Assembly (NCBI RefSeq): GCF_000219625.1
Contig: NC_018201.1
Coordinates: forward strand, 266,179-330,178
Source: Zymoseptoria tritici IPO323
Taxonomy: Eukaryota > Ascomycota > Dothideomycetes > Mycosphaerellales > Mycosphaerellaceae
Length of the DNA stretch: 64,000 nucleotides
Direction: 5' to 3'
In this document: positions 8,483 to 45,292 of the stretch, piece by piece
Numbering within the stretch: position 1 is the first letter of the stretch
How the letters are laid out: every line of letters starts with the position of its first letter
The notes under the pieces: model-generated
What the model was told of the DNA's origin: nothing
Database searches by the model: none
Seen by the model: only the letters and a program-made list of their open reading frames with translations
Made by a program: the position numbers and the translations under genes

Positions 8483-8495
8483 ACTAGGGCTACTA
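8483..8495. repeat. target duplication of short retroelement copy 1
   Basis: ACTAGGGCTACTA, repeated at 9307-9319 after the tail. It fixes the first base of the inserted element at 8496. Confidence 0.9.
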
Positions 8496-8569
8496 GGCCG
8501 GCGACGAGGAACACCTGTACGCGGTGCCGGCTACGAACCTGCGATACTATCGCAGAGCTAAGTTTCCTC
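8496..8569 (+). ncRNA. HDV-like self-cleaving ribozyme, copy 1
   Basis: The double-pseudoknot fold is complete. P1: 8496-8502 (GGCCGGC) with 8526-8532 (GCCGGCT), 7 bp, ending in the G-U wobble at the cleavage site. P2: 8506-8511 with 8564-8569 (GAGGAA/TTCCTC). P3: 8513-8515 with 8523-8525 (ACC/GGT). L3: 8516-8522. P1.1: G8517-C8534 and T8518-A8533. P4: 8539-8544 with 8550-8555, 5-nt loop. J4/2 contains C8558 followed by TAA, matching the catalytic C-N-R-A pattern. P1 has the same sequence as the HDV genomic ribozyme, but P1.1, P2 and P4 differ in sequence and keep pairing. Predicted cleavage is immediately 5' of G8496, the element boundary. Role by analogy to R2, RTE and L1Tc ribozymes: release of the element RNA 5' end from a read-through transcript. 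Confidence 0.88.
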
Positions 8570-9149
8570 CGGAGGATTGGAGAGGCCGTCGATCCCTCTT
8601 CCCTTACAACAACAACACGACCTAGAGGTACGCCTCCCCTCGAAAATACAAGCTACAACAGAACGCTAGTACGATTCGAACGAATAGCTCTCTACGCTAC
8701 GAACGAGAAGAAGAAGAAGAAGAAGAGGCAGTCTACTCTATCCTATACGCGCATCTCCTCGAAATCCGAACCGAACCGCACCTCTTTCCCTCTAGAGATT
8801 CGGGTCCTCTACGGATAAGTGCACTTTAAAGAGCTAGAACAACGGTGGAATCCACAACTCTACGATTAACCTGCGTTGTCGTAGATAGAACTGCTACTAC
8901 GATACTACAAAGGCGTATTAAGGACAAGAGAAGATAGCGAGTTAGATAGCTGCTTGCGCATCTGCGTCGCTCCTGCACTACTTTTGCAATGCAATGCATT
9001 TCCTCTCTCTTTCGAATTCGTAGTGTACGTGCGAAGCGGAAGGATCCGCTGAAAATTCTGCAAAAGCTTAGCGCGAAAACTCTGCAGCTCCGGCTGTAGC
9101 AACACTCTTTTAGATTTCCTTTGTCTTGCGTTTGTTTTAAAGTCTTTTA

Positions 9150-9306
9150 GCACTGCCTTAGGCACGGGGTTTCCCCTAAGGTTAAAGAATACCGAAGAAT
9201 CTAATTGTAAATAGATCTACCGCCTTGCCTCTAGGGCAAGGCCGTCCTACATAGTCTTGGACTCCGAAAGGACGTAAATGGAACAAACAAACAAACAAAC
9301 AAACAA
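9150..9306 (+). other. LINE-like structured 3' end and (AAAC)n tail, copy 1
   Basis: Shares GGCACGGG, CCCTAAGGTTAA, CGTCCTACATAGT and GGACGTAAATGG with the ends of the LINEs in this window. Hairpins: 9223-9229 with 9235-9241 (CCTTGCC/GGCAAGG), then 9243-9248 with 9269-9274 (CGTCCT/AGGACG). The first hairpin has a wholly different stem sequence in the LINE (GCTGTC/GACAGC) at the same place, which suggests structure is recognised by the reverse transcriptase. The tail is AAAC repeats. Confidence 0.8.
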
Positions 9307-10249
9307 ACTAGGGCTACTAACGATCGTAAACGCCTATATATACTAGGGAATTTAACGCTAGTTGCTGTCGGTAATCTAGTTAGCTTAAGGGCTTTTTATA
9401 AGGGCAATCTAGGTCTTAGGAGTATAGGCGTTAAGTAGCTTCTGTCTAGTTTTAGATACGGTATAAAAAGCGCTCTAAAGATCCGAGTATTTAACGTCCT
9501 TATAGGCGGTTGCCTAGCTAGTACGTTCTTAGTCCGATAGGAAGTAGAGTAGTTTAGGGTAAATATATAGCCCTCTCGATCCGTATTTCTCTTTCGATCT
9601 ACTTTTAAACACTTAGAGCATTCTAGCTATTTCGCGGCAGTCCTTTAATTGCTCGGTAGCTATAAAGTAGTCGCGGTAGATTCTTTTAATTGCTTCTTTA
9701 CTAAGAACACTAAAATCTACGCCGCTAAGGTTTTCCGGTAGTAGTAGACGCCTCTATTTAATCCTTTAGCGAAGGACTCGGCTAGGTGCAGTATCTAGAA
9801 AGTTAGCTATATTAGACATAGGAAGCGACTAGTCTAAGTTAATCCTTCTTAGTATAGGGCGGCTAAATTCGTTTTCCGTAAGCTTCAATCTAGATTTAGT
9901 TCTATATATATAGTTTCGGTAGAAATAGAAGTCTTCTATAGTTACGGATGTTTATAAAAGGAAGTAGGTTTAGTTTTGAAGTTAGAAAATCCTTATAGTT
10001 TAACGCTAAGGTTAGCGCCGAGGATTATATAACTCGGACTTTTACGTAAGGATTTAGGGTCGACGGCGATATCTTAATAAACGACCGGTTAACCCGTCCT
10101 TAAACTTTATATACTCGGTCCGAGGGGCGCTAACTCGGAGCTCGCTATTAAAGAAAATTAATAGCGATAATACCGACGTCGCTATCGTAGTCTTAGCGAA
10201 ACTCCCCCTAGTCCGCTAACTTATTTTATGTCTTCTAGCTATTTTAGCG

Positions 10250-11568
10250 TTATAGCGGTAGTAGGGAGCGTTAAACTAATAGCCTTCCGGAAAGCGTAGA
10301 ACTAACGATTCGGAAGTAGCTTAGTAAGACTATCCGCGATTATTTTGTCGGTCTTAACCTAGCGTAGTTCGATGTCCCCTTCTTAAACTCGCTCGCGAAT
10401 AAAATATACGTTAATACTAAAGTGCTTAGATCGCGAGTAGAACGCTAGGTTCTTCGCGAGAGCTATAGCGCCTTAGTTGTCGTAGTATATAATAGTCGCC
10501 TATAGACCTTTCTCGGAGTCGGGGAGTATTTAATCGAGAAGAGACTTTAGCTAGATAGCTTCCTTAGCGGCTTACGTTTCGCCTATATATTCCGCTTTAA
10601 CCGTTAATAGCGCTACTCTCGTCTATCGCTTTAACGACTAACTAATAGCTCCGCTACCTAGGCTAAATACCTAGCCGGACGTAGAGCGGCGTATCTCGAT
10701 ATCGCTAGCCTAGTCGGCGTCTATATAGCCGCTAAGTAGTTGTAGATCTCTATAGTATACTAGTTTAAATTAAATAGTATAACGTAGGTAAGCTATAATT
10801 CTTTCGACTAGTTTCTAGTATTCTTCGGTAGGATTAGCGTAGAACCGACTAACTATAGATATAGAGTATGCGATGTCTAGTCGAGCGCCGAGCATAGCGT
10901 ATATTAGTAAGCCTACAGCTAACTAATATTTAGCTCGAAGTTTATCCGGGGTAATATAGCCTTCTTCCGTAGGTTAGATCTTTGCGGAAGAGTCTATTAG
11001 AGTCGTTCTAACCTTTTGTTCCTACATGTTATATTGTCGGAGGAACTTCTTAATATAGGCCTATTAGCCGAGGAATATCTTTCGGTTAACGCGGTCTCTA
11101 CGTACTATTATACCGAGATAGTAGGTACATAGTCCGAGATCTATTATTTCGAATCTTTTCGCTAGTTAGCTTTTAATTTCGCTAACTTCCTTCTTCCGTA
11201 GTCCGACGATAAGTAGGTCGTCTATATATACGGCGATAAACGTATTCCCTCGGATAAAGACGCTAGCGTCGGCGTCTAGCGGCTTAAACCCGATTTCCGC
11301 GAGGTAAGAGGTTAAAGTTTTATACTAGGTACGAGGTAACTACTTTAATCCGTAGAGGGATTTTTTAAGAAGGTAGACATTATTCCCTAGCTCCTTAAAT
11401 TCGTAGGGTTGTTTAACGTAGACGGTTTCCTTAATAAGGCCGTAAAGGAAAGCGGTTTTAACGTCTATTTGTTCGATCTCGTAGTCTAGTACTATAGCGA
11501 TTACGAAAATAGCCTTATAGCTTATTAGTTTAACGACGGATGCGAAGGTCTCGGTATAGTCTAAGCCC
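10250..11568 (-). pseudogene. copia reverse transcriptase and RNase H, main segment
   Basis: Minus-strand pol segment that made the copia reverse transcriptase, which copies element RNA into DNA inside virus-like particles. Visible are the LYGLK motif near 11345, the catalytic YIDDLLIVG motif at 11203-11229, a linker, then RNase H with DADWASDIEIRRSTSGY near 10680-10730 and SKHF near 10420, ending with DSLTKLLPNR near 10290-10330. Many codons are TAG where Trp or Gln is expected. The upstream part of the domain continues at 12398-13131 beyond the second short retroelement. Confidence 0.88.
11555..11568. repeat. target duplication of short retroelement copy 2
   Basis: TATAGTCTAAGCCC, repeated at 12384-12397. 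It sets the element start at 11569, the same element base as in copy 1. Confidence 0.9.
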
Positions 11569-11642
11569 GGCCGGCGACGAGGAACACCTGTACGCGGTGC
11601 CGGCTACGAACCTGCGATACTATCGCAGAGCTAAGTTTCCTC
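11569..11642 (+). ncRNA. HDV-like self-cleaving ribozyme, copy 2
   Basis: Identical over 74 nt to 8496-8569. P1 is 11569-11575 with 11599-11605, the predicted catalytic cytosine is C11631, and the predicted cleavage is just 5' of G11569, again exactly at the target-duplication junction. Confidence 0.88.
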
Positions 11643-12383
11643 CGGAGGATTGGAGAGGCCGTCGATCCCTCTTCCCTTACAACAACAACACGACCTAGAG
11701 GCACGCCTCCCCTCGAAAATACAAGCTATAACAGAACGCTAGTACGATTCGAACGAATAGCTCTCTACGCTACGAACGAGAAGAAGAAGAAGAAGAAGAG
11801 GCAGTCTACTCTATCCTATACGCGCATCTCCTCGAAATCCGAACCGAACCGCACCTCTTTCCCTCTAGAGATTCGGGTCCTCTACGGATAAGTGCACTTT
11901 AAAGAGCTAGAACAACGGTGGAATCCACAACTCTACGATTAACCTGCGTTGTCGTAGATAGAACTGCTACTACGATACTACAAAGGCGTATTAAGGACAA
12001 GAGAAGATAGCGAGTTAGATAGCTGCTTGCGCATCTGCGTCGCTCCTGCACTGCTTTTGTAATGCAATGCATTTCCTCTCTCTTTCGAATTCGCAGCGTA
12101 CGTGCAAAGCGGAAGGATCCGCTAAAAATTCTGCAAAAGCTTAGCGCGAAAACTCTGCAGCTCCGGCTGTAGCAACACTCTTTTAGATTTCCTTTGTCTT
12201 GCGTTTGTTTTAAAGTCCTTTAGCACTGCCTTAGGCACGGGGTTTCCCCTAAGGTTAAAGAATACCGAAGAATCTAATTGTAAATAGATCTACCGCCTTG
12301 CCTCTAGGGCAAGGCCGTCCTACATAGTCTTGGACTCCGAAAGGACGTAAATGGAACAAACAAACAAACAAACAAACAAACAA
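11569..12383 (+). mobile_element. short non-autonomous non-LTR retroelement, copy 2, ribozyme-headed
   Basis: An 815-bp second copy inserted in the copia reverse transcriptase region with its own 14-bp duplication, hence an independent transposition. Sequence order is as in copy 1: ribozyme head, unrecognised body with (GAA)n, LINE-like 3' stem-loops (12296-12302 with 12308-12314), (AAAC)n tail. Differences from copy 1 are a few transitions. Both copies share orientation relative to copia, opposite to copia transcription. Confidence 0.88.
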
Positions 12384-12397
12384 TATAGTCTAAGCCC

Positions 12398-21587: not shown

Positions 21588-23216
21588 ATGTCTCAAACCT
21601 TCCCTTCACGACCACGACCACGCTCCGCGTTTGATGGACGCACTCCCTCTCAGGAAGAAGAGGCACGCGCCCATGCTATGGTCCTCGAAGAACAGTCTCG
21701 CCGCCATACCCAGACTACGCACCACGACCAAGCCACCACCCTCCAAGAACGCCTTATCGCCGCAGGCATCAGCCAAGACGTGCCTGAAACCGCTGAAGAG
21801 CTGCAACGCGAGCTCACTGCGTCGTGCGATGGGGATGAAGCAGCCGTGTGGAACTTGATTCACCAATACCTCCGTGGATACCAATCGGTCGCGACTGAGG
21901 TCGAACGCCTTCGCTGTGTATACGGCGATGAGGGCGTCCAGCTTCAACGCTCGCACCATCAGCTTCAGGAGGAACACCATGAACTACAACGCCACTGTGC
22001 TCAGCTTCAAAATGAGGCTATTGAGGGTAACGCCAACATTGAATCCCTCAAAGGCGACATCGAGTCCCTTAAGAATCGTCTCAAGGAAGCTCAGTCCAAA
22101 ATCGCCTCTCTCCGCGCCTCACCACCTCAACTGCCACTGCCTCCGTCACCACTACCAACCGCCTCTCGTGGGCCATTCGGCAACACGTTTGGCTCCGCCG
22201 TATCCCCCAGGACCACCTTCGCCGCCCCAGTCACCGCATCAGCCTATCGACCCCCCTTCTCGGACTATCAGAAGTCCGAGAAGGTGGATGTTGAGAAATA
22301 CAATGGCTCTCGCGACCAGCTCACGCCCTTCGTTCAAGCCCTTATCCGGAAGTTCCATGTCAACGCTGACCGCTACCCAACTGAGGAGTCCAAGCTCGTC
22401 TACGCGACTGGCAGACTTGAGGGCAAAGCTGAGAAGATGATGTCCCCCCTCTGCCGCGGTAATGAAGAGACTGGCACTATTGCCTTCTCCTCGGTTATTG
22501 ATACACTCCCCAAGTTCTACCGCAACCTGCGTCGCGCGTTCGGCGATACTAATGAGATCGGCACCGCCAAACTGGAGCTTCAGAAGCTCCAGCAGAACAA
22601 CCACCCATTCACCACCTTCCTTGCGGACTTCAACCGACTCATGGCCATCCTTCAGTATGATGACAACCCCCGCCTTGATGCCCTAACCGACCGAATCAGC
22701 GGAGAGCTGAAGGACGCCATGACCTTCTGGAAGGTCATCCCCGACAAGTTCGATGACCTCTGTGAGGAGCTCTCGATTCAAGATGACAAGATTCGCTACC
22801 GCCAAGCTCAGTTGAATGGCCCTGGTGCCTTCAAAAAGAGCGTTTTCCAGATGTACGAAGCCAAGCAGGCCTCCGCCGGAGCCAACAACAACAGCCGTCG
22901 AACCCCCGCCGCCACCACGACTACCACGACCACCACCGCTCCGCGCTCGAACTCCACTGGTCGGTTCCAGCCAGTCACTACCTCTCAGGGCGGTGACGCC
23001 ATGGACCTCTCAGCGACTGGCCCACGCAGTCCCCTGACTGACGCCGAGAAGAAGAGACGCAAGGACAACAACCTCTGCAATTACTGCGCGTCTGACAAGC
23101 ACTTCCGAGCCAAGTGCCCTGTGGCACCGACTAACACTATGCGTGTAGCGGCCATGGACGACACCGCTAGTGAGGCTGGCGGAGTCCGAATTACCAAGCT
23201 GGCGGAAAACGAGTAA
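21588..23216 (+). CDS. gag: gypsy C Gag, 542 aa, intact
   Basis: Capsid/nucleocapsid polyprotein that packages element RNA in cytoplasmic particles. After a variable N-terminus there is a Glu/Gln/Leu-rich coiled-coil stretch (about residues 95-175), a Pro-rich linker (about 180-230), the retrotransposon-gag capsid region (about 240-400), a Thr-rich linker and a CCHC zinc knuckle at residues 497-510 (CNYCASDKHFRAKC, C-x2-C-x4-H-x4-C). The ATG at 21588 follows the 5' LTR by 123 nt and is the first in this frame. No stops are present, in contrast to every other gag in the window. Pol follows in the -1 frame and overlaps the stop. Confidence 0.92.
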   Translation: MSQTFPSRPRPRSAFDGRTPSQEEEARAHAMVLEEQSRRHTQTTHHDQATTLQERLIAAGISQDVPETAEELQRELTASCDGDEAAVWNLIHQYLRGYQSVATEVERLRCVYGDEGVQLQRSHHQLQEEHHELQRHCAQLQNEAIEGNANIESLKGDIESLKNRLKEAQSKIASLRASPPQLPLPPSPLPTASRGPFGNTFGSAVSPRTTFAAPVTASAYRPPFSDYQKSEKVDVEKYNGSRDQLTPFVQALIRKFHVNADRYPTEESKLVYATGRLEGKAEKMMSPLCRGNEETGTIAFSSVIDTLPKFYRNLRRAFGDTNEIGTAKLELQKLQQNNHPFTTFLADFNRLMAILQYDDNPRLDALTDRISGELKDAMTFWKVIPDKFDDLCEELSIQDDKIRYRQAQLNGPGAFKKSVFQMYEAKQASAGANNNSRRTPAATTTTTTTTAPRSNSTGRFQPVTTSQGGDAMDLSATGPRSPLTDAEKKRRKDNNLCNYCASDKHFRAKCPVAPTNTMRVAAMDDTASEAGGVRITKLAENE

Positions 23217-23218
23217 AC

Positions 23219-26200
23219 CTCGAGCATAGTCGCGCTCGAGGGCAGGCTCCAACACCAGCTCCACCATCTCCTTTTGTTTATCAGCATTTACAGCGTTCAG
23301 CACTGCATCAAGATACCTATCCTCATCGACAGCATCCGGATACACAGCATCCTCACGATTCACGACCAACCACCGCGGCCGCTGAGCCCACCGATCCAGC
23401 GATTTATCAGATACCTCGACATCTTCATCCACCCCGGCTCGCGACGAGCAACACCACCCGCAATTCAACCCTCCGCATCAGTTCGGCTGCGCTGAAGGAG
23501 CAGCTTGTGCCTGACGAGGATCATTTGGTCCTACCGTGTACACTATCTCCTTCCTCATCTGTAGCTCTCGAATCTGAATGCATGGTTGATTGCGGCTGCA
23601 CCGGTTTCTCATTCATGGACAGTGACTACGCGCACAGTCACGGTTTTACGATTGAAGCCCTTCCTCACCCTCGCGCCCTCGAATCCTTTGATGGCACCGC
23701 GGTTGCTGATGTCACGCATGTGGCCAAGGCAACGATGACCATTCATGGCCACAAGGAACATATCTTCTTCTTCCTCGCCAAGCTGGGACACTACCCAGTA
23801 ATCCTCGGCATGCCATGGCTGAAGCGCCACAACCCTCGTAACCTCTGGCAACAGAACGCCCTTGTGTTCGACTCCGAGCATTGCCTCGCCTCATGCAACC
23901 AAGACCACGCCATCGTCCGCGTATGCGGAACTTCCTCAATCACGCCCTCGCCAGTCCCCAGTCCGCGTTCAAGCACCCAGACAGCACCGCCGGTGCAGTT
24001 GTCAACCCTCGAATCTACCATGCGCCGCCATGGCGAACTCAGAGCGACTGCCAAGTCGTTCACACCGATGCCTCGCCCTGACCATGACCAAGCCCCTCGA
24101 TCACCGCCACGCCCTCGCACCGTCACTGATGAACTGCTCCGACCAACTGTCGACAGTTCTCAGGCTCCTGATTGGCCGGCGGCTAATCCACGGAGACACT
24201 CGCAATCGACTCAGCTCGGCGCAGACGAGACGATTGCCGCTGAGAAACCATTGACCAATGAGAAGCCAGGAAACTCCTTGAACTCCAACCCTCGCTCCAC
24301 GCTCTCGATATCCACGATCCGACGCGCACGAACCATGGGCTTGTGTTGCGTCAGTGCGACTGTTTTCAATGAGCTATCCACTCGCCGCCATCACCGTGTC
24401 TTCGCTGTATCCCTCCGAGACGTCGAACAGGCGATCTCGCACAAGAAATCCATCGATCCCCTCACCAAGCTGCCACGCCAATGGCACGACCTCGCCGCCG
24501 CCTTCAGCAAGACCGACTCGTCGAAACTTCCGCCTCACAGAGCCTACGACCACAGAATCGAGTTGACCGCCGAACCCACCCACGGCCCACTGTACAGCAT
24601 GTCACATGAAGAGCTGGAAGTATTGAGGGACTACCTCAAGGACAACCTCGACAAAGGACTGATACGTGCCTCGTCCAGCCCGGCCTCATCGCCAGTGCTG
24701 TTCGTCAAGAAGCCTGGTGGTAATGGTGGCTTGCGCTTCTGCGTGGACTATCGCAAACTCAACGCGATCACGAAGAAGAACCGCTACCCAATCCCCTTGA
24801 TCCAAGAGACTCTCGCCAGACTAAGCAAGGCAGTCATCTACACGAAGATCGACATCATCTCAGCGTTCAACAGACTGAGGATCGCTGAGGGCGACGAATG
24901 GAAGACTGCGTTTAAGACACGCTATGGGCTGTACGAGTACCTCGTGATGCCGTTCGGGCTCACCAATGCCCCCTTATCATTTCAAAACTACATCAATGAT
25001 TCCCTTGCTCCTTACCTCGACGTGTTCTGCACGGCCTACCTGGATGATGTGCTTATCTACTCAAACTCTCGAGCCGAGCATGACGTCCATGTTCGCAAGG
25101 TCCTCGAAGCCCTCCTCGCTGCCGGCCTGCAGGCTGATATCACGAAGTCAGAGTTCGAAGTCACCAGCGTCAAATATCTCGGCTTAATTATCACTACCGA
25201 GGGGATCCGCATGGATCCTGAGAAGGTCGACGCCGTCCAGCACTGGCCAACCCCGAGGAATGTCAAGGACGTTCAAGCGTTTATTGGTTTCGCCAACTTC
25301 TACCGCCGCTTCATTAGGAACTTCTTACGCATCGCACGACTACTCACTGAGCTAACCAAGAAGAAGGGTGAACACCTCCGCGCGACCTATGGACCCTTCG
25401 TGTGGTCGGCTGAGGCACAGCAATCCTTCGACGCTCTTAAGCTCGCGTTCACCACTGATCTAGTCCTCGCGCTCTACGACCCTGCCCTTCCGATTATGGT
25501 CGAGACCGACGCCTCCGACTACGTTGTTGCAGGCGTTATGTCACAACTCCACCAGGACGATGTCCATAGTGAGGTGTGGCGCCCTGTAGCATACTTCAGC
25601 AGCAAAATGTCGCCGGCCGAGTGCAACTACGAGATCTACGACAAGGAGCTGATGGCCATTATCAAGTGCTTCGAATCATGGCGACCGGAACTTGAAGGAC
25701 GCCAAACTGATAAACTAGTGCGTGTTATTACCGACCACCGCAACCTTGAATATTACATGTCCACTAAGCTCTTAAATCGCCGTTAAGCGCGTTAGAGTGA
25801 ATTCCTTAGTCGCTTCAACTTCGAGATTACGTACCGCCCTGGCGTGCAAGGCACCAAACCGGATTCACTGACACGCCGATCAGCTGATCTTCCCCTTAAC
25901 GACAACGATCCTCGCATCCTCTCGCAGCAGCGTGTTATGCTGAAACCGCGCAACGTTAACCAAGCCCTCCGGTCAATCCGCGTCCACAGCCTTCGATGCA
26001 CTGCCGCTGCACCACTTATCATCGCCTCCGAGAACCATGAGACCATCGACCTCGACGCGCTGCGTGAACTCATCGTCCAAGACACCGCCCACGACGTAGG
26101 CGTAAAAGAACTTAGGAAACACATCGCAAGCGGCTCAGTGCCAGTCAAAGGTGCTGACCTGTGGATATCACCAGCGGACTGTCAGTTCAGTGATGACGGC

Positions 26201-27880
26201 GCTCTGCTCTACCGAGGACGAATATATGTACCCAAAGGCCAACGAACGCAGGTATTGCGCATTAATCATGACACCCCCTCCGCTGGTCACCCTAGCAGGA
26301 ATCACACCTTCGAGCTGCTGTCACGCAACTACTTCTGGCCAACCATGCGTGATGATGTGGAGCGATACGTAGCTCACTGCCACACGTGCGTTCGCACCAA
26401 GCCCTCTCGTCAGTCCAAAGCAGGGCTGCTCAAGCCCCTGCCCTTGCCAACCCAACGCTGGCAGCATGTCACCGTCGACTTCGTCACTGGATTGCCGACG
26501 AGCTCGCGAGGATTCGACTACGATGCTATCATGGTGGTCGTCGACCGCCTCACCAAGATGCGTTACTTCATCCCCATGGTCAACGGTAGGGATCAACAAG
26601 GGCTTGACGCTTACCACACCGCCGACGCCTTCCTCGACCACGTCTGGAAACTGCATGGCTTACCAAGCACGATAACCTCAGACAGGGGGCCACAGTTCAT
26701 TTCATCGTTCTGGCGATCACTTTGCAAGCGATTGAAGGTGGACGTCCGTTTGTCAACAGCGCGCCATCCACAGACCGATGGTCAGACCGAGCGATTCAAC
26801 TCTTCAATGGAGGCTTACCTACGCACCTACGTCAATTACCACGGTGACGACTAGGTGGACTGGCTGTCAATGGCTGAGTTCGCCGCGAACAACAACCACT
26901 CCGATGCCATTGGCATGTCGCCATTCAGAGCCTGTTATGGCTACGATCCGAGGATGACCGCCGAGCCAGCCGACAGCGATTGCACCGAAGACGTGGCTAG
27001 CTGGTTGACGACCCTCGAGGCCACGCGCGAACAGGCTGTCAACGCTCTGCGCTGGTCACAGGAACTCATGGAACGTTCCGCCAACCTCCACCGCCGCGTC
27101 AGCCCTGCCTACAAAGTCGGTGATGAGGTGTTCTTGTCACTTCATGGCCTATCTACCGACCGCAACCCCAAGTTCACCAACCGCCGCTCCGGACCTCACC
27201 GCATTAAGAAGGTGATCTCACCGTACGCATACGAGCTGGATCTACCGCCTTTAATGAAGATCCACCCTGTCTTCCACGTTGGCCTGTTGACACCGCTCTC
27301 ACCGAAACAACCGCTGCCAGGCCACAAGGAGTCTCAAGCGCCACCGGCTCCAGTAGTCATCGGCAGTGACGTTGAATACTATGTTTCTGGCATCGTGGAC
27401 TCACGGAACACTCGTGGGGGCTTCCGATATAAGGTGTTGTGGCTTGGCTACGACACGCCGACATGGGAGCCTGTTGAGAACGTTGCTAACTCACCAGATC
27501 ATGTCGTCGCCTTCCACTCGCGATTCCCCCTCAAACCAAGACCAGCAGGAAGTGACGTTGTTACTGCCTCAGACGCCACTTCCGCTCTCGCCGCAGAGCC
27601 TCCACCCCCGCGGAAATCAGCCAGATTGGCCGCGATTCAAGCGATTTCATTGGCTCGGACTACGGCTCCGTGGACGTCACCTTTTGAGGGAGGGGGTAGT
27701 GTTACGGATAAACACGCTCGAACTCGCGACCTTCTGGTTGAAGGGGCTCGAACTCGCGACCTTCTGGTTACGTCCGGAATTCGCGCCGGCGTAGATCTTA
27801 GCACGCCGTGCGTATTTCTCAGCACGGCTTGGCGCTCGAAGTCGTCTCGACTTTCTTCGGATAACTTCCTCTTCCTTTAG
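23219..27880 (+). pseudogene. pol: gypsy C Pol, three RIP-type stops
   Basis: PR-RT-RNaseH-integrase-chromodomain polyprotein. The frame is -1 to gag and open across the gag stop, so it may be made by -1 frameshifting. Protease DCGCTG near 23588, RT with FVKKPGGNGGLRFCVDYRKL near 24706-24765 and YLDDVLIYS near 25037, RNase H with TDASDYVVAGVMSQ near 25505, integrase HHCC region near 26290-26400 (HCHTCVRTK) and DDE residues in DFVTGLP (26476), TSDRGPQF (26678) and TDGQTERF (26772), chromodomain near 27377-27535 (YKVLWLGYDTPTWEP). Stops: TAA at 25784, TAG at 25793 and TAG at 26852, at expected Gln, Trp and Trp positions. The frame otherwise continues unshifted into the 3' LTR to 27880. Confidence 0.92.
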
Positions 27881-38300: not shown

Positions 38301-39690
38301 TAAAGTGGCCATACCTCGTCCGAAAGGTAGTTTTCTACTAATTACTCTCCTTAATTCGGATGCGATAGTACGCGTCTCGTATATCTAGCTTTGTAAAGAA
38401 CTTTGCCGGCGCCAGCTAGTCCAGAGATTCCTAGACGAGGGGCAGGGCGTGTCTATTCTTAATAGTAACGGCATTAAGGGCCCTATAGTCGACGTACAGA
38501 CGTAGGCTACCATCCTTTTTCTTTACAAAGAGGATGCCTACCCCCGCTAGGGAGGTCGAGAGGCGGATCTACCCCTTCTCTAGGCTGTCGGCGAGATAGT
38601 TGCGTAGAGTCTCTAGTTCTATTATAGAGAGGTTGTACAATAGGCCGTACGGGGCCTCCTTGCCTTCTTCGAGGTCGATACTGAGCTTATTCGGCCCCGT
38701 CTCGGGGAGAAGGGACTCGTTTCCTTCTACGAAAACGTCCGCGAAGTCCGAGAATTCGCTTAGAAGTTCCGGTTCTTTTGGCGCGTCGTCTGTACGTTAA
38801 GCGGTAAGGGCCTAAACGCGCCCCGAAGGGATGCCGGAGGCGTCCTTCTAGAACTCTTTAGGTAAGACGAGCCTAACCGGCCTCTATTGTCTGCCTTTCG
38901 TCCCCTTCTAGGTAACGCTTTTGCGGATAAAGTTCACCCTCGGGTTCTATCGTTCTAGCTAGGGCATGCCGAGGACTAGTTAGAACCCGTAGATTCTTCC
39001 GACTACGAAGGTTTCCACACATCCTCTTATGTGCCCTTAAGTGTCTATTACTTTGAACGGGACGCGGCATTCTCCCTAAATAGCTATCCTCTAGCTGTTT
39101 AGTGCCACGTATTAGGCCGTCTGCCCTAACTCGGGGCTTAGGCCTAGCTCTTTAGCTACTATGTTGTCTATAAAGTTGCTTTGCGCTCCGCAATTAAGCA
39201 GTGCTCAGAGTGTCTTAGTCCTATTAGGACCCTACATCTCTACTTTAAGGCGTATTAGCCCTTCCCCTGTAGTTCGGGGAATTCCTCCTAGCTCGGCAGC
39301 TTTTCTTTAGGCCTCCGAGTACTAGACTTGACCCGTAGCGATCAGAGGAGATCTACTACGGGCTCTCCCTTTTCCCGACTAGTCCTTATTAGGGCATTCC
39401 TAGCGCCGGTGGCCCTCTTTGCTATATATCTAGCAGGCGGTGGCCGACTTCTCCTTATTAGCCGCCTTCGGGGGGGTTTTAGCCCTTCTCGGCCTACTCG
39501 GGGGCTTGTTGTTTTTGTTTAGGCGCCTTCCGTTAGTCTTGTCGACGGAAGTCTTCGCTAAGCGCTTTTTGTTAAATTCCTGTATCTATTAGTACGATAT
39601 ATTGGCTCGTTCCTCCGCATCTACGAGGGTCGTAAGGGTAACTTAGCCCTGTTCGAGCCTGTTTCTAACCGCCGGGGTAAGAGCTCCCTT
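35372..39690 (-). pseudogene. gypsy B pol and gag C-terminal part
   Basis: The stretch of gypsy B between the two LINEs. On the minus strand: gag zinc-knuckle region near 39400, protease DCGAQ-type region near 39180 (here the Cys-Gly context is altered), RT with YLDDI near 38175-38205, RNase H, integrase with ITSDRG near 36520-36540, and chromodomain near 35700-35860. Aligns with gypsy A 14640-18990 with many independent CA/TG to TA differences. Confidence 0.88.
39678..39690. repeat. target duplication of LINE 2
   Basis: TAAGAGCTCCCTT, repeated at 45280-45292. Gypsy A has the uninterrupted site near 18966-18978. Confidence 0.92.
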
Positions 39691-39828
39691 GTTGTTTGTT
39701 TGTTTGTTTGTTCCATTTACGTCCTGTAGGAGTCTATGACTATGTAGGACGGCTGTCTCGCGACAGCAGTCTATCTATGTACAATCGTTGTTCTCTCGTA
39801 TCTCTTGACCTTAGGGAAAGACCCGTGC

Positions 39829-42800
39829 CTAGGATAGTAGCAAGCTAGTATCGAAGGACTTTAAAGAAAGACAAATAAGGAAAAGTAAAAGGAGTGTAGG
39901 CTAGACGGTCTCGTCTTCGCCTCTTGCTAGGTGCTAGGACCTAGAGGCAATCTTTGTATCCGAGAGAAAGGTAGTGAGGTGTTTCCGGAGTTCCTTATCT
40001 TCTACTATTTCTAGCAGAGATTGTGCTTGTCGTAGCGGTAGTAGCCTAAATACATCGTAGATAGGGCAGCTACATACGAGGTGTTCTGCTGTTTCTCGTC
40101 GTCCGCAAGGGCAGTCTGGCGTCGTTGCGTGTCTAAAGCGATAAAGATAGGACTTTAGGTATCCGTGTCCTAATAGGATAGTATAGAAGGCACTAGTTAA
40201 AGCGCGTCTTCCTCCTATTCTATGTTTTCCTGGCGAGCTCTATGGAAATCGACTAAGGTAGCTATTTGTATTCCTAGGTACCTTATTAATCTCCCGTTGT
40301 CTTGCTATTTCGTATTAGGTTTTCCAGACGCTAAAGAGATCGTCTTTTGCGTAGTTAGCCCTCTCGTGTTCTACGAAATGCTTGTATTGTCGGAGTCGAT
40401 AACAGAGTAGTTGTATCTGTGTTCTCTGTCGTTTTTGCGGAAGTATCTCTCTCGAGTCCTCGTGTCGGACTTTTCGCGTATCCGAAGGCGCGCTTTAGAT
40501 AGCGAGTCTTATAGGGTGGTTTTCGGGTAGCTTTGCTGCGCGTAGAGAGTATAAAATTGACTGTCTCTCTAGGCGTAGATCCGGGGGGAAGAGATTTGAC
40601 TCTACTTCGGACGGGACGTTTAGTGCGGTACGGAAAACGCCTAGGATCTTCCTACAAGCTTTACTTTGTAGAGATACTAGAGGTTTTATGCTCTTTTTCG
40701 ACCGCTACCAAACTAGGGCCCCGTAGTCTGCTATTGTAGTAACGCAGGCTAGGTAGATCTTTCTTAACGATATAGAAGACAGACCGCGTTCGGTATTTGC
40801 TAGTCTTTCTAATCGATAGAATGCTGCTTGTGCTTGTGCCGATCTTATTGCAATGTGCTCCTTAAAGGTAAGACCGGCATTTAGCCAAATCCTAAGCTAC
40901 CTTATCGCTTTCTTCGCCGGGCGAACAATATCGCCGTTTGGAAGAATTACCGGGTAATCGGACCCTTTCCCTTTCGAGAAGTGTACTAGGTCTGTCTTTG
41001 CTAGGTCGAAAGTAATCGAGTTCTTCTTTCCTAGGTCTATTAGCCTTCTTGCCTTACGTTCTAGTACCTTAGAGTTCTTCTTAAGGGACGTAGACGAGGT
41101 AGATAGTCTAATGTCGTCGACGTAGGAACTAGGAGTAACTCTTTGTAGCGAGAAGAATATGTCGCGCGTATAGATAAGAAAGAGGATAGGAGACATCGGG
41201 CTGCCTTGTGGAACGCCGATCTCTACGTCCTGGAATTCCTGTATCTGTCCGTCGAATGCTATTCGTAGGCGTCTATTGCTTATAAACGACTGAACCTAAC
41301 GTATAAGGCTATGCGGAAGCCTTAACTGGATTATTATTCTTAATAGTCGGTTCTTTGCAACGTGGTCGTATGCTCCTCTTACGTCGAGGAAGATAACCGA
41401 AGTCTTCTTTTTCTTTCTTCGATTCTCCTCGATTTCGTTTGTTAAGAGAAGCACCGTATCGATAGCCGATTTCTTCTTTCGCCCTCCTAACTGCGAGTCG
41501 TGTAGAAGGGGCTTCGTCTCTACGATAATCCCTAGGCGTTTTGCGAGTATTCTCTTACTAATCTTACTAAGGTAGTTTAGGAGAGAGATAACTTGGTAGG
41601 CCTTAGGGACCGAATAGTCTGGTTTTCCCGGCTTCGCTAGAACTGCGCCTGTCGCAACTTTCCAGCATCGGGGGTGGTGTCCTTCGTCGAGTAGCCTCCT
41701 ATATATACGTAGAAAGGTAATAGGAATAGCGCCGTACGCTTTACTAATAATAGCTTGCGTAATACCGTCTGGGCCCGGCGTTTTTCCTTTTACTATCTTC
41801 GTACTACAGGCGGCAGCGAGTTCCTCTTCGGTTAGCGTGGTCCAGCCCCAATCCCCGGCTGTATACGCTTCCTAACGGCTAGGTAGAGGTTCCTCGGCAG
41901 GAGGGCGCGGAAATAAGGCTTCGGAGAAGGCCTTACATTTCCCCTCGAAAGAATCCTCGTTGTTTATCGTAGGTATCTGTCTTCGGCTGCTGTTCCTAGT
42001 ATAGGACATAGCTTTAAAGATAGATTTCGAGTCTTCTTTTTCGAGGAAAGCGTTCTAGTAGTTCTTCTTAGCTGTTTTAATAGCTTGGAAGTACTTGTTT
42101 CTCGCTTTCGTATACGCCTCTTTCTCGTCTAGCGTCGGCGTACGTCCGCAGGTAAAGGTCTGTCTATATGTTCTAGACATTGTGCGGCGTAGCGTGCGTA
42201 GCTCTTCATTCCACTAAGGTTTTGCGCAGGCGTGTACTACTTTCTCTAGGATTGCTCCCCGCATCGATTCGGTAATACACGAGGTAAAGGAGTCTGCGAT
42301 GTCGTCGAGGGAGTTCGTATAGTTAATAGACGTCGCCTTGCTTATTAGGAGATCTGTAAACAGTTCCCAATCCGCGGAAGCTATGTCTAGAACTACTTTC
42401 TTCTGTTGGGCTCGATCTTGCGCGCTAATAAGGTCTATAGATATAGCCTTATGGTCTGAGCCTGTCGGAATCGTTCTCCAGTCGATTTCTTTCGTAGATA
42501 AGGATCCTCTTGTGAACGTAAGGTCTAGGACCGACTCTGCGTCTAGGTGCGGCCTATAGAAGGTCCCGACACCTATCGTATTACGTAGAGTAAAGCCCTG
42601 GTCTTCTATCCACTCTATAAATTCGCGGGCACTAGTAGTATCCTTTCCCCTCGGATCCTAGGACGGGTGTCTAAGGTTAAAGTCTCCTACTAGTAGAGTG
42701 TTTGGAAGGAACGTGTTGCGTAGAGAGTAGAGGCTTCTCTCTGTTGTTCGTCGGTTTTGCGGGTTCTCGGTATCTCGAAGGTCTTTCTCGTTGTAGAGAT

Positions 42801-43146
42801 TAACTATCTGGATCTTGTTGCCCCTCTTGTCTGAAATAACAAAGGAAAGTATGTCGCTGTCGTCTAATAAAATAGGAGAGATATTGACGTTAAGTCTTGT
42901 GCTAATATATAGCATTGTCCTTAGCCGGATCGTCGAATCCGTAGTCGTTGGGAATAGCTGGTTGTACTCCCGGTGTGCGATAGATCTTGTCTCTTTGTAG
43001 CCTGTTATCGGGTCTTCTATAGTCCACGGTTCCTGGACTAGTAGAAGGTCGGCTTTCTGCTTAACCGCGACGTCTAAGGTAGACTCTGTAGCCTCGATAG
43101 ATCGGTTAAGATTGACGTAGAAAATCCGTAGAGAGTGTTCTAACAT
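39829..43146 (-). pseudogene. LINE 2 ORF2, endonuclease-RT
   Basis: Starts MLEHSLRIFYVNLNRS at 43146, 30 nt after the ORF1 stop. The AP-type endonuclease nicks target DNA: LLLVQEPW near 43050, GDFN at 42676-42687, SDHKAI near 42460. The RT domain has GKTPGPDGI near 41775, GVPQGSP at 41197-41220 and YVDD at 41113-41124. A C-terminal CPCGRREIV zinc-type motif is near 40085-40115. The first stop is TAG at 42658. The remaining stops are few and mostly at Trp/Gln sites. No RNase H-like block lies between the RT and the Cys motif. It would have mobilised itself and perhaps the short elements that share its 3' end. Confidence 0.9.
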
Positions 43147-43175
43147 GTAGAACGTTCTAGGGGCCTCCCTTTCTG

Positions 43176-43746
43176 TTATATACGATCCTTCGCCTTCTCG
43201 ACTCTTAGGCTGTCCGCGCCTACGTATAGACGGTTTTGAATAGCCCTTTTTGCCTCCTCCTCGGTGGCAAAACCTACTAGAACTGTCGCCCTAGTAAGAG
43301 TCCTTCTTCTCTCTTCGTTTGTTAGCCAAATCGGGGTGCCTGCGAGTTTAAGACCTCTATTAAAGGTCTCAATTTCTCGTTGAATGTCCTGTAGGCCCGT
43401 TGGCGTGTTGAAGTTCGCGGTCGAGACGCCGTGGACTACGACCTTGTGCCAGAGAGAGTCCTCTATTACCCGTGCCTCGCCTACGATATCGGTCACCTTA
43501 GTAAGGCTATTAATCGTTCGTTAGCGGGCTTTCTCTGTTGCAAAGTTTAGGACAATATTACCCCGAAATGATTTCTTTATCGCAAGGACAGCTAGCTCTT
43601 GGTCTTCGCCTTTAAGAGCGTTGTTGATTTTGTCTCGGGTTGCGATCTGGTCGAGTTCCTTCTCTTTATCCTTTGGTACAAGGATAAGAGGCATCGGTTC
43701 TGCTTGTTCTTTCGGCTTGCTAGCCCTCCGGGAGACGGTCGTCCAC

Positions 43747-43779
<33 letters not shown>

Positions 43780-44312
43780 GTTGTCTTTGTTGTCGAGGAG
43801 GTAGAGGTAGAGGTAGCGGATCCGCTGTCTCCCTTAACAACGTCTGCGAAAGTAGGCTTCTTCGCCTGTGCTGCTAGTTTCTTTGTTGTTATTTCTAGGT
43901 TCGAGACTTGCTTTGCGAGGATTTGGGACGTTGTCCTAAAGTCTGTACGCTCGGTAAAGTGCCGAAAGACTTCGAGAAGGTCGAGAACCCGGGTTTGTTC
44001 TCCTGGAAACCCGACTAGATCCCCCGCCGCTTCGACTAGTAGCTGTCGGGCTTGTAGGATCTTCTCGTTCGCGGGCGTGTAAGAGAGTGTTTGTTTCTTT
44101 CCGAGAGAAGGGCTGCGAGTCGGGGAGTTACTGAAATCGAAGGGGTTTTGCCTTTTCCTAGGTAGGAAAGGAAAGCCGGTTCTTTTTAGTAGTTCCTCCG
44201 GCAACGGCAGGGTTTTGAGGGACTTAAACGTAACTTCCTCGTCCCCTCTAGCCGTAGCTTTTGGAGTCTGAGGGGCTGAGCCTGCGTCTGTCATTTCCGT
44301 CTCGGTAGACAT
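43176..44312 (-). pseudogene. LINE 2 ORF1, one in-frame stop
   Basis: 378-codon ORF1 starting MSTETEMTDAGSAPQTPKA at 44312. It has a Ser/Thr-rich linker, an 11-residue Gln tract encoded by CAA repeats near 43745-43780, and a C-terminal part with EEEAKRAIQNRLYVGAD. The N-terminal 263 residues are open. The single TAA at 43521 is followed by eight codons and then the rest of the frame to 43176, so only one nonsense change separates it from an intact ORF1. No CCHC knuckle is visible. Confidence 0.86.
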
Positions 44313-45279
44313 TGTCTTGTTGTTGTTGTTGTTTGAAAAGAGGCTCAGCAGTCTTACGCCGAGAGGGCTACTTGTTCGTCTCTATTTCCAATCGCGTTCG
44401 GGTCCTAGCCTACTTGCGACACTAGGGCACTCTTCTCCCTACTATACAAAGTAGTATAGGAGAAGGTATACTTCAAAGAGGAGAGAAGAGATATATAAAT
44501 ATACCTCTGCTTCTAGGAAGTACTCTGGCCTGCAGCAACGTGCGTCTTTATAGCAGGCTTTAGAGGCGTTCTGCGGGTAGCCGTAGCAGGTTCGGGACAA
44601 CCTTTGTCTCTAGGGAAAGGTAGGCCTATACTCTATATAGAGTATCTAGCTATACAGCTAGTACTACTACTCTAATCCCTAGAGGTGCAAATTCGTCCTT
44701 ACTAAACTACACTGCTCCTTTAGCTTCCTCTCTCGGCGGCGTAGGACAACAGGTAACTCTAGTGTAGAGAGAACTAAGTGTTTGTGTATATATATGTTTG
44801 TGTATCCTAGGAACACTGCTCTTGTTTGGCCTTTGGCTCTTTCAAAATTCGACCAAATCAGGCGTTTGATAGCTAGAATAAAAGCTCTCGTCGAGGGCTT
44901 TCAAACGGGCTACACGGCGTCCGAATCGGCGGCGTATTGGTTGTGTTGTGGTGTGTTGAAGTGTTGTGGTACAGGTTGTGAACCTTCCTTGTGCAATGCC
45001 CTAAACAGGGAATGTTTCGAGTGTGGGGGAGGTGAGGTCGGAATAAGGTTTCGGAGGTGGGGGCCAAATCCCGGAGTTCAGGGTCCAGCGTCCTTGAAAA
45101 TTTGCACCCCAAAGGGGGCAACAAGGTGAATCTTTGAACTCCAGTAGCGGCGTAGGTTTTGAGGGCAGCGGAGTGAATGCGGGTTCGTTGGAACGGCCTT
45201 GATAAGGGCTTTCGAATGGTGCGTGTTTGGTGATGATCGGGTCAATATTGGGTGTGCAATGGAAGTGCGGATGTCGATG
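44313..45279 (-). other. LINE 2 5' UTR
   Basis: About 970 nt before ORF1, matching LINE 1 29792-30746. It should contain the internal promoter needed by a LINE. It does not fold as an HDV-like ribozyme: no complement of the first seven bases occurs at the expected spacing. Confidence 0.6.
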
Positions 45280-45292
45280 TAAGAGCTCCCTT

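Follow-up and report, generated by a model that had tools for sequence, protein, structure and literature searches.

A predicted HDV-like ribozyme at the first base of a SINE-like element of Zymoseptoria tritici, and two predicted ribozyme heads on one body

The stretch analyzed here, referred to as the window, comprises 64,000 nucleotides of Zymoseptoria tritici IPO323 (NC_018201.1, positions 266,179 to 330,178) and harbors an 811-bp element resembling a short interspersed nuclear element (SINE), whose 5' end can be drawn as a hepatitis delta virus (HDV)-like self-cleaving ribozyme. Very probably, this predicted ribozyme, which begins at the first base of the element, would cut the RNA of the element out of a longer transcript and leave a template with an exact 5' end for the long interspersed nuclear element (LINE) that likely copies it. 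According to the initial annotation of this DNA, a short fungal retroelement of the non-autonomous kind starts exactly with an HDV-like ribozyme, which would free the RNA of the element, and this proposal is supported by the genome copies, the duplications flush with the predicted cut, the pairing kept among copies and a candidate LINE partner. Its remark that such a carrier would be unusual needs tempering, since short ribozyme-headed elements have been described in trypanosomatids and Drosophila (PMC4035085, PMC3414825) and HDV variants in fungi (PMC5640933). A second, different ribozyme on the same body, the intermixing of the two, the LINE in the window and the 5' end of that LINE, at which no ribozyme was found, go beyond what had been annotated.

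Fold, boundaries and pairing of the predicted ribozyme

The element is bracketed on the plus strand by a 13-bp target duplication, ACTAGGGCTACTA, at positions 8483-8495 and 9307-9319, and these duplications, bounding it at both sides, define it as 8496-9306. As had been noted, the cut predicted from the fold coincides with the left boundary given by the duplication, which ends flush before 8496. A second copy with 99% identity lies on the same strand, 3 kb from the first, within its own 14-bp duplication. Among the open reading frames (ORFs) of at least 30 aa that overlap the element, the longest within it has 86 aa, and the element is non-coding. Its parts are as follows.

8483-8495 (+): left target-site duplication ACTAGGGCTACTA, by sequence inspection
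8496-9306 (+): non-autonomous element of 811 bp with head type A, from the bounding duplications and genome copies
8496-8569 (+): HDV-like ribozyme of type A with predicted cleavage before G8496, from fold, scan and pairing counts
8496-8637 (+): exchangeable 5' head (ribozyme and linker); type B copies have the other head here
8512 (+): extra C between P2 and P3, in 34/34 A and 29/29 B copies, as in published fungal HDV variants
8558 (+): predicted catalytic C in J4/2 (C[CU]AAG), in 34/34 A and 29/29 B copies
8638-9101 (+): non-coding body common to A and B copies
9102-9306 (+): 3' end common with the LINE (~74% identity), with two hairpins and an (AAAC)n tail
9307-9319 (+): right target-site duplication of the first copy, by sequence inspection
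11555-11568 (+): left duplication TATAGTCTAAGCCC of the second type A copy
11569-12383 (+): second type A copy, with its ribozyme at 11569-11642
12384-12397 (+): right duplication of the second type A copy

The five helices of the HDV double pseudoknot that had been drawn initially, including the 2-bp P1.1, the G-U pair at the cleavage site and C8558 with TAA, are all present in the sequence. P1 is formed by residues 8496-8502 and 8526-8532, with the G8496-U8532 pair at the cleavage site; P2 by 8506-8511 and 8564-8569; P3 by 8513-8515 and 8523-8525; P1.1 by the pairs G8517-C8534 and U8518-A8533; and P4 by 8539-8544 and 8550-8555, while J4/2 reads C8558-U-A-A. A scan demanding this pairing geometry together with C[CU][AG]A before P2 matched only at 8496 and 11569, both on the plus strand, when both strands of the window were covered, and gave no match on the single strand scanned of each of 10 first-order Markov shuffles; with the fold already in view when the scan was devised, it is tuned to this geometry. 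Pseudoknot-free folding gave a z-score of -2.03, with 4 of 200 shuffles equally good.

The genome (39,686,251 bp in 21 contigs) was searched with the element; 40 of 417 candidates were scored, and these yielded 44 matches. These matches form two classes, one starting at element position 1 (type A) and the other showing similarity from position 143 (type B). The type B copies, retrieved by the body alone, have a different head, which can itself be drawn as an HDV-type ribozyme starting at the duplication. With up to 2 mismatches allowed and reversed controls giving 0 matches, a 23-nt pattern of the type A head matched 95 times genome-wide (90 exact and 5 with one mismatch), and the type B head matched 173 times. 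For the counts that follow, 63 distinct headed copies (34 A and 29 B) were fetched from the top-scoring matches, each recognized by the first ~20 letters of its head. When 30 loci were retrieved by the 3' end, 27 aligned from position 1 of A or B, one of them in two pieces; among the remaining ones, L047 and L055 adjoin a nested copy and L066 starts near position 495.

Pairing was counted per class on the 63 copies, with identical copies counted each time, and P2, P4 and P1.1 were counted by script because the MAFFT alignment places A and B one position out of register in P2 and P4. Standard pairs occupied 872 of 876 cells in the A copies and 657 of 696 in the B copies, where 29 of the 39 misses correspond to one U-U in P1.1. 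The initial annotation had stated that its reading would fall if P1, P1.1 or P4 were not maintained in other copies; as seen from the A counts, they are. J4/2 reads C[CU]AAG, with its C present in all 63 copies, and the strict geometry was found at the first base in 32/34 A and 25/29 B copies. Several positions are paired in both classes by different letters, namely pairs 2, 4 and 6 of P1, pairs 1 and 4-6 of P2, and pairs 2-6 of P4, for which the register between A and B was the analyst's choice; within A, moreover, P4 varies in length, its short and long forms having changed pairs. Covariation in P1 and P3 was computed on 22 distinct sequences against 500 shuffles. These helices were paired in 97.3% of cases compared to 85.4% after shuffling, and their covariation score was 0.383 compared to 0.191, with 0 of 500 shuffles reaching either value; structures slid along the alignment scored at most 0.194.

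Ribozyme letters outside the recognition pattern have a mean pairwise identity of 0.964 (A) and 0.978 (B), compared with 0.872 (A) and 0.849 (B) for positions 141-600, and the ribozyme core is among the most conserved parts of the element. All 29 type B copies have AGUA/GAA beside P4, which we take to be the loop-E signature; a scan of viral contigs for the loop-E pattern gave 0 matches. The extra C between P2 and P3 is a letter of the copy-recognition pattern, and it is also found in copies retrieved by body similarity alone. The pair at the cleavage site is G-U in 34/34 A copies and G-C in 26, A-C in 2 and G-U in 1 of the 29 B copies.

A target duplication of 11-19 bp ends at the predicted cleavage site in 58 of the 63 headed copies. 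Its inner end is offset from the site by 0 in 38 copies, by +1 to +3 in 20 and by a negative value in none; offsets of +1 to +3 are expected where target and element happen to agree in the first bases of the latter. Since two pairs of copies share left flanks, the 63 copies represent at most 61 separate insertions. Empty sites were seen by comparison with an uninterrupted paralogue for an A copy nested in a B copy (L008) and for a B copy nested in a LINE (L130), where the LINE pieces overlap by 14 bases. The cases in which A, B and LINE copies have inserted into one another (L008, L047, L055 and L130) are usable for relative dating.

A retrozyme-like cycle, in which the ribozyme would release monomers from tandem transcripts for ligation into circular RNAs, also employs a small self-cleaving ribozyme in a non-autonomous, non-coding element (PMC4918200, PMC7761336). 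We consider such a cycle very improbable here, given that 58 of the 63 copies stand singly, each within a duplication of its own, and that each element in the window has one ribozyme. Moreover, retrozymes have hammerhead ribozymes and circular RNA, whereas the present ribozymes are of the HDV class and are followed by an (AAAC)n tail and a LINE-like 3' end.

Two heads on a common body

On contigs C1-C4, the exact 3' motif of the element lies 698-873 nt downstream of 22/23 type A and 30/37 exact type B heads, compared to 0 (A) and 0 (B) in a strand-flipped control, and the other 8 heads on these contigs align to the same body. A body tree was built from the last 570 nt of 59 copies, leaving out 4 of the 63 that have no 3' motif within 900 nt. 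It takes 16 changes to account for the head types on this tree (13-16 in bootstraps), at least 5 of them forced by well-supported branches, and a single A clade is rejected (p 4e-9). Shuffled labels needed 19.8 changes, and 24-25 of 500 shuffles were as low as the observed value, so some clustering of heads remains. The two halves of the body gave 16 and 14 head changes. Recombination inside the bodies could inflate the number of changes, yet it is itself the kind of exchange proposed, as the heads were presumably reshuffled by recombination or template switching. The junction of head and body falls at one place in each class, suggesting that each head was probably attached in a single event, exchange between A and B then proceeding through the body that they have in common.

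In both heads the ribozyme is followed by a linker of ~55-70 nt. These linkers are compatible with a head composed of promoter plus ribozyme, similar to Pr77 of L1Tc and NARTc, in which the transcript would begin at position 1 or slightly upstream of it and be trimmed or regulated by the ribozyme. Pr77 is reported to activate transcription (PMC8190864, PMC4748587) and to hold an HDV-like ribozyme (PMC4035085). Such a head is the strongest rival, and compatible with cleavage; we nevertheless regard it as rather unlikely, as the A and B linkers look unrelated in sequence, a comparison made by eye with no formal alignment. The proposal of a cut at the first base would see in A and B two head modules of different ribozyme sequence and one fold, reshuffled on one body. 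Since the features visibly shared by the heads are the ribozyme fold and the letters of its L3 and J4/2, selection most likely acts on cleavage itself.

The candidate LINE partner and the proposed cycle

Over its last ~205 nt, the element shows ~74% identity to the 3' end of a LINE, of which the window holds one copy.

39691-45279 (-): LINE copy with the 3' end of the element; its 5' end reads CATCGACATCC, and no HDV-like fold was detected there
45280-45292 (-), with the other copy at 39678-39690: LINE target-site duplication AAGGGAGCTCTTA
43521-44312 (-): LINE ORF1, first open stretch, 263 aa in the window copy

Both the LINE and the element end in two hairpins; the last one has identical stems, and the penultimate one is kept in both with different letters. 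The 3' motif occurs 421 times in the genome (reversed control, 0). Of the 92 exact 3' motifs on C1-C4, 40 lack a listed head at the expected spacing, and of 16 sampled from these headless motifs, 14 lie in LINE copies and 2 in B copies. The LINE copy L082 encodes an endonuclease and a reverse transcriptase in an uninterrupted frame of 1148 aa, and 183 proteins are related to the LINE, the named ones being mostly fungal. The window copy has no ORF of at least 250 aa over ORF2. In L082, ORF2 (L082:1048-4491) has no RNase H match, unlike many of the listed relatives, and the leader of the LINE before ORF1 measures ~0.97 kb.

The 5' end of the LINE is identical in 17/17 copies, which were selected among the best of 40 matches. 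An HDV-like fold was detected at this end neither by Rfam, nor by the descriptor on the minus strand of the window, nor by eye in the 17 copies; a model search with filters off found no such ribozyme at the end, its best score being 4.2 bits at 44497-44558, away from the end. A C precedes all 17 copies (L111-L126 and window position 45279), so the LINE probably starts with this C (CATCGACATCC). The 14 letters in front of the window copy, AAGGGAGCTCTTAC, recur in front of L115, and the flanks of the two differ further out.

An exact 5' end reached in 17/17 LINE copies at which no ribozyme was found indicates that a start site can suffice in this genome. The head of the element could accordingly act mainly as an internal promoter starting at position 1, the HDV-like fold being a relic or a structural cap. 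This explanation appears improbable, because two heads of largely different sequence share the fold, the C of J4/2 and the boundary, and because the ribozyme core ranks among the best conserved parts. An RNA polymerase III promoter in particular is disfavored: a simple pattern matched no B box in the element and one A-box-like sequence at position 526, four T4 runs lie inside the element, and no tRNA was found in the 64-kb window.

By the criteria for SINEs, the 811-bp element is non-coding and shares its 3' end with a LINE. By the same kind of sequence criteria, a tRNA, 7SL or 5S head for polymerase III transcription finds no counterpart: in addition to the missing tRNA and B box, Rfam gave no 7SL or 5S match in the window at the gathering threshold. 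In SIDEs of the truncated-LINE (NARTc) type, the 5' end derives from the driving LINE; no such derivation was found here, where the match is limited to the last ~205 nt.

Since no ribozyme of this kind was found at the 5' end of the partner LINE, the heads may have been captured from another present or past LINE of this genome, as in the R2/R1 SIDEs, which join the R2 ribozyme to the R1 3' end (PMC3414825). Capture would concern the origin of the ribozyme and not its function, and it is plausible, although we lean slightly against it: each of the 60 listed A and B heads on C1-C4 belongs to this body, as judged from the 3' motif or an alignment, and no LINE with a like ribozyme was seen, the 5' ends of other LINE families lying outside the comparison.

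We propose the following cycle for the element. Transcription would presumably come from outside, or from a start upstream of the first base of the element. Folding while the RNA is still being made, the ribozyme would cut it before G8496 and leave an RNA with a 5'-OH that starts at the first base. The LINE reverse transcriptase would bind to the 3' hairpins and the (AAAC)n tail and copy the RNA by target-primed reverse transcription, as suggested by the shared 3' end, the tail and the target duplications. Because the ribozyme is in the RNA, every full-length copy would take it to the next site.

A number of observations weigh against ribozyme cleavage followed by LINE-driven copying. At the gathering threshold, Rfam gave no match over the whole window, and the covariance search with its HDV models, suggested in the initial annotation, scored far below gathering for type A (RF02682, 16.8 bits, E 0.48, gathering score 44). 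Type B reached 18.7 bits with RF02682 (gathering, 44) and 13.3 with drz-agam-1 (gathering, 37); the gathering score is a cut-off of the library and not a structural requirement. P1.1 of type B has one standard pair only, the inner pair being C-G or U-G and the outer one U-U in 29/29 copies. Moreover, 6 of the 63 copies miss the strict geometry, and in 5 of the 63 no duplication was found. Double-change pairs (3, compared to 2.8 after shuffling) and further pair types (5, compared to 6.6) constitute two of five covariation measures that do not exceed the shuffles, because most of the change is one A/B split. The 3' end is also well conserved, with mean pairwise identities of 0.905 (A) and 0.934 (B), and the level of the ribozyme is also reached in 13 of 611 (A) and 7 of 610 (B) equally long windows of the body. 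Being top-scoring and recognized by the head, the 63 copies say little on 5'-truncated or decayed heads. The LINE, with its exact 5' end in 17/17 copies and no ribozyme found there, implies that an exact 5' end alone is no proof of cleavage, and both the mobilization by the LINE and the 5'-OH end of the RNA are steps that we infer.

Relation to known ribozyme-headed elements

Ribozyme-headed short elements and fungal loop-E HDV ribozymes are both known already. Li and Breaker (2017) reported 230 HDV variants in 26 fungal species, of which two examples cleave RNA in vitro; in these variants a loop E takes over part of P4, one additional nucleotide (in most cases C) separates P2 from P3, the pair at the cleavage site is typically C-G, and gene associations are widely variable (PMC5640933). 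The words transposon, retrotransposon and SINE have 0 mentions in the main text of that paper. The present ribozymes resemble these variants in the fungal host and in the extra C of both A and B, and type B, by its sequence signature beside P4 in 29/29 copies, resembles the loop-E variants, whereas type A has an ordinary, regular P4. They also differ in the cleavage-site pair, which is G-U (A) or mostly G-C (B) and not the C-G that is typical, although not invariable, of the published set (PMC5640933). In the open literature, subscription papers lying outside this coverage, we found no paper joining fungal HDV ribozymes with retroelements, and none linking Zymoseptoria with such a ribozyme.

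NARTc, RIME and SIDER of trypanosomatids are likewise short, LINE-related and headed by a 5' HDV-like ribozyme; however, the LINE there bears the same 5' hallmark, and NARTc and RIME are its truncated versions (PMC4035085), whereas in the present case the search at the LINE 5' end turned up no ribozyme, and the element has two alternating ribozyme types. The R2 and the hybrid R2/R1 SIDEs of Drosophila share with the present element a 5' HDV-like ribozyme, a short length and a LINE 3' end (PMC3414825). The R2/R1 SIDEs come closest, in that their driver (R1) is not the source of the ribozyme, and they have 14-bp duplications as well; they differ in their fixed ribosomal DNA sites and known cotranscript (PMC3414825), as opposed to the dispersed copies found here. 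With SINEs headed by tRNA, 7SL or 5S sequences, the element has in common that it is non-coding and dispersed in hundreds of copies with a LINE-shared 3' end, but no tRNA-like head or clear polymerase III boxes were found, the head being a predicted ribozyme.

The element might therefore stand for a class of its own, namely SINEs headed by an interchangeable self-cleaving ribozyme rather than by a polymerase III gene, which need no promoter start of their own; the orphan fungal loop-E HDV ribozymes might then largely be such heads, and one body could trade ribozymes provided that cleavage occurs at its first base. We hold this as a serious possibility rather than as the expected outcome. If true, it would give a biological role to the fungal HDV-like ribozymes, published as RNA-cleaving and with widely variable gene associations, and a SINE-like element would use a ribozyme in place of a polymerase III head while the LINE likely to drive it does not. 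Two ribozymes of different sequence on one body, in hundreds of copies of a well-assembled genome, also constitute a natural mutagenesis set, in which the pairs that persist, the forms of P4 and the J4/2 letters of copies that have moved can be compared with cleavage rates.

Repeats make up 7,383 kb, or 18.60%, of the Z. tritici genome with its 21 chromosomes, and SINEs appear in the corresponding repeat table as one family of 1 kb (PMC4502367); other sources give one SINE consensus (PMC10652580) or unclassified SINE families (PMC7014611). Given how little SINE sequence these published tables hold, the element has perhaps been filed otherwise.

A reverse transcriptase at ~24704-25192 of the window was considered as a partner and dropped, since its ORFs read like a gypsy-type long terminal repeat (LTR) element. 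The four long ORFs that read in this way span 21588-27880 on the plus strand; the reverse transcriptase was recognized by PF00078, within an open frame of more than 870 aa.
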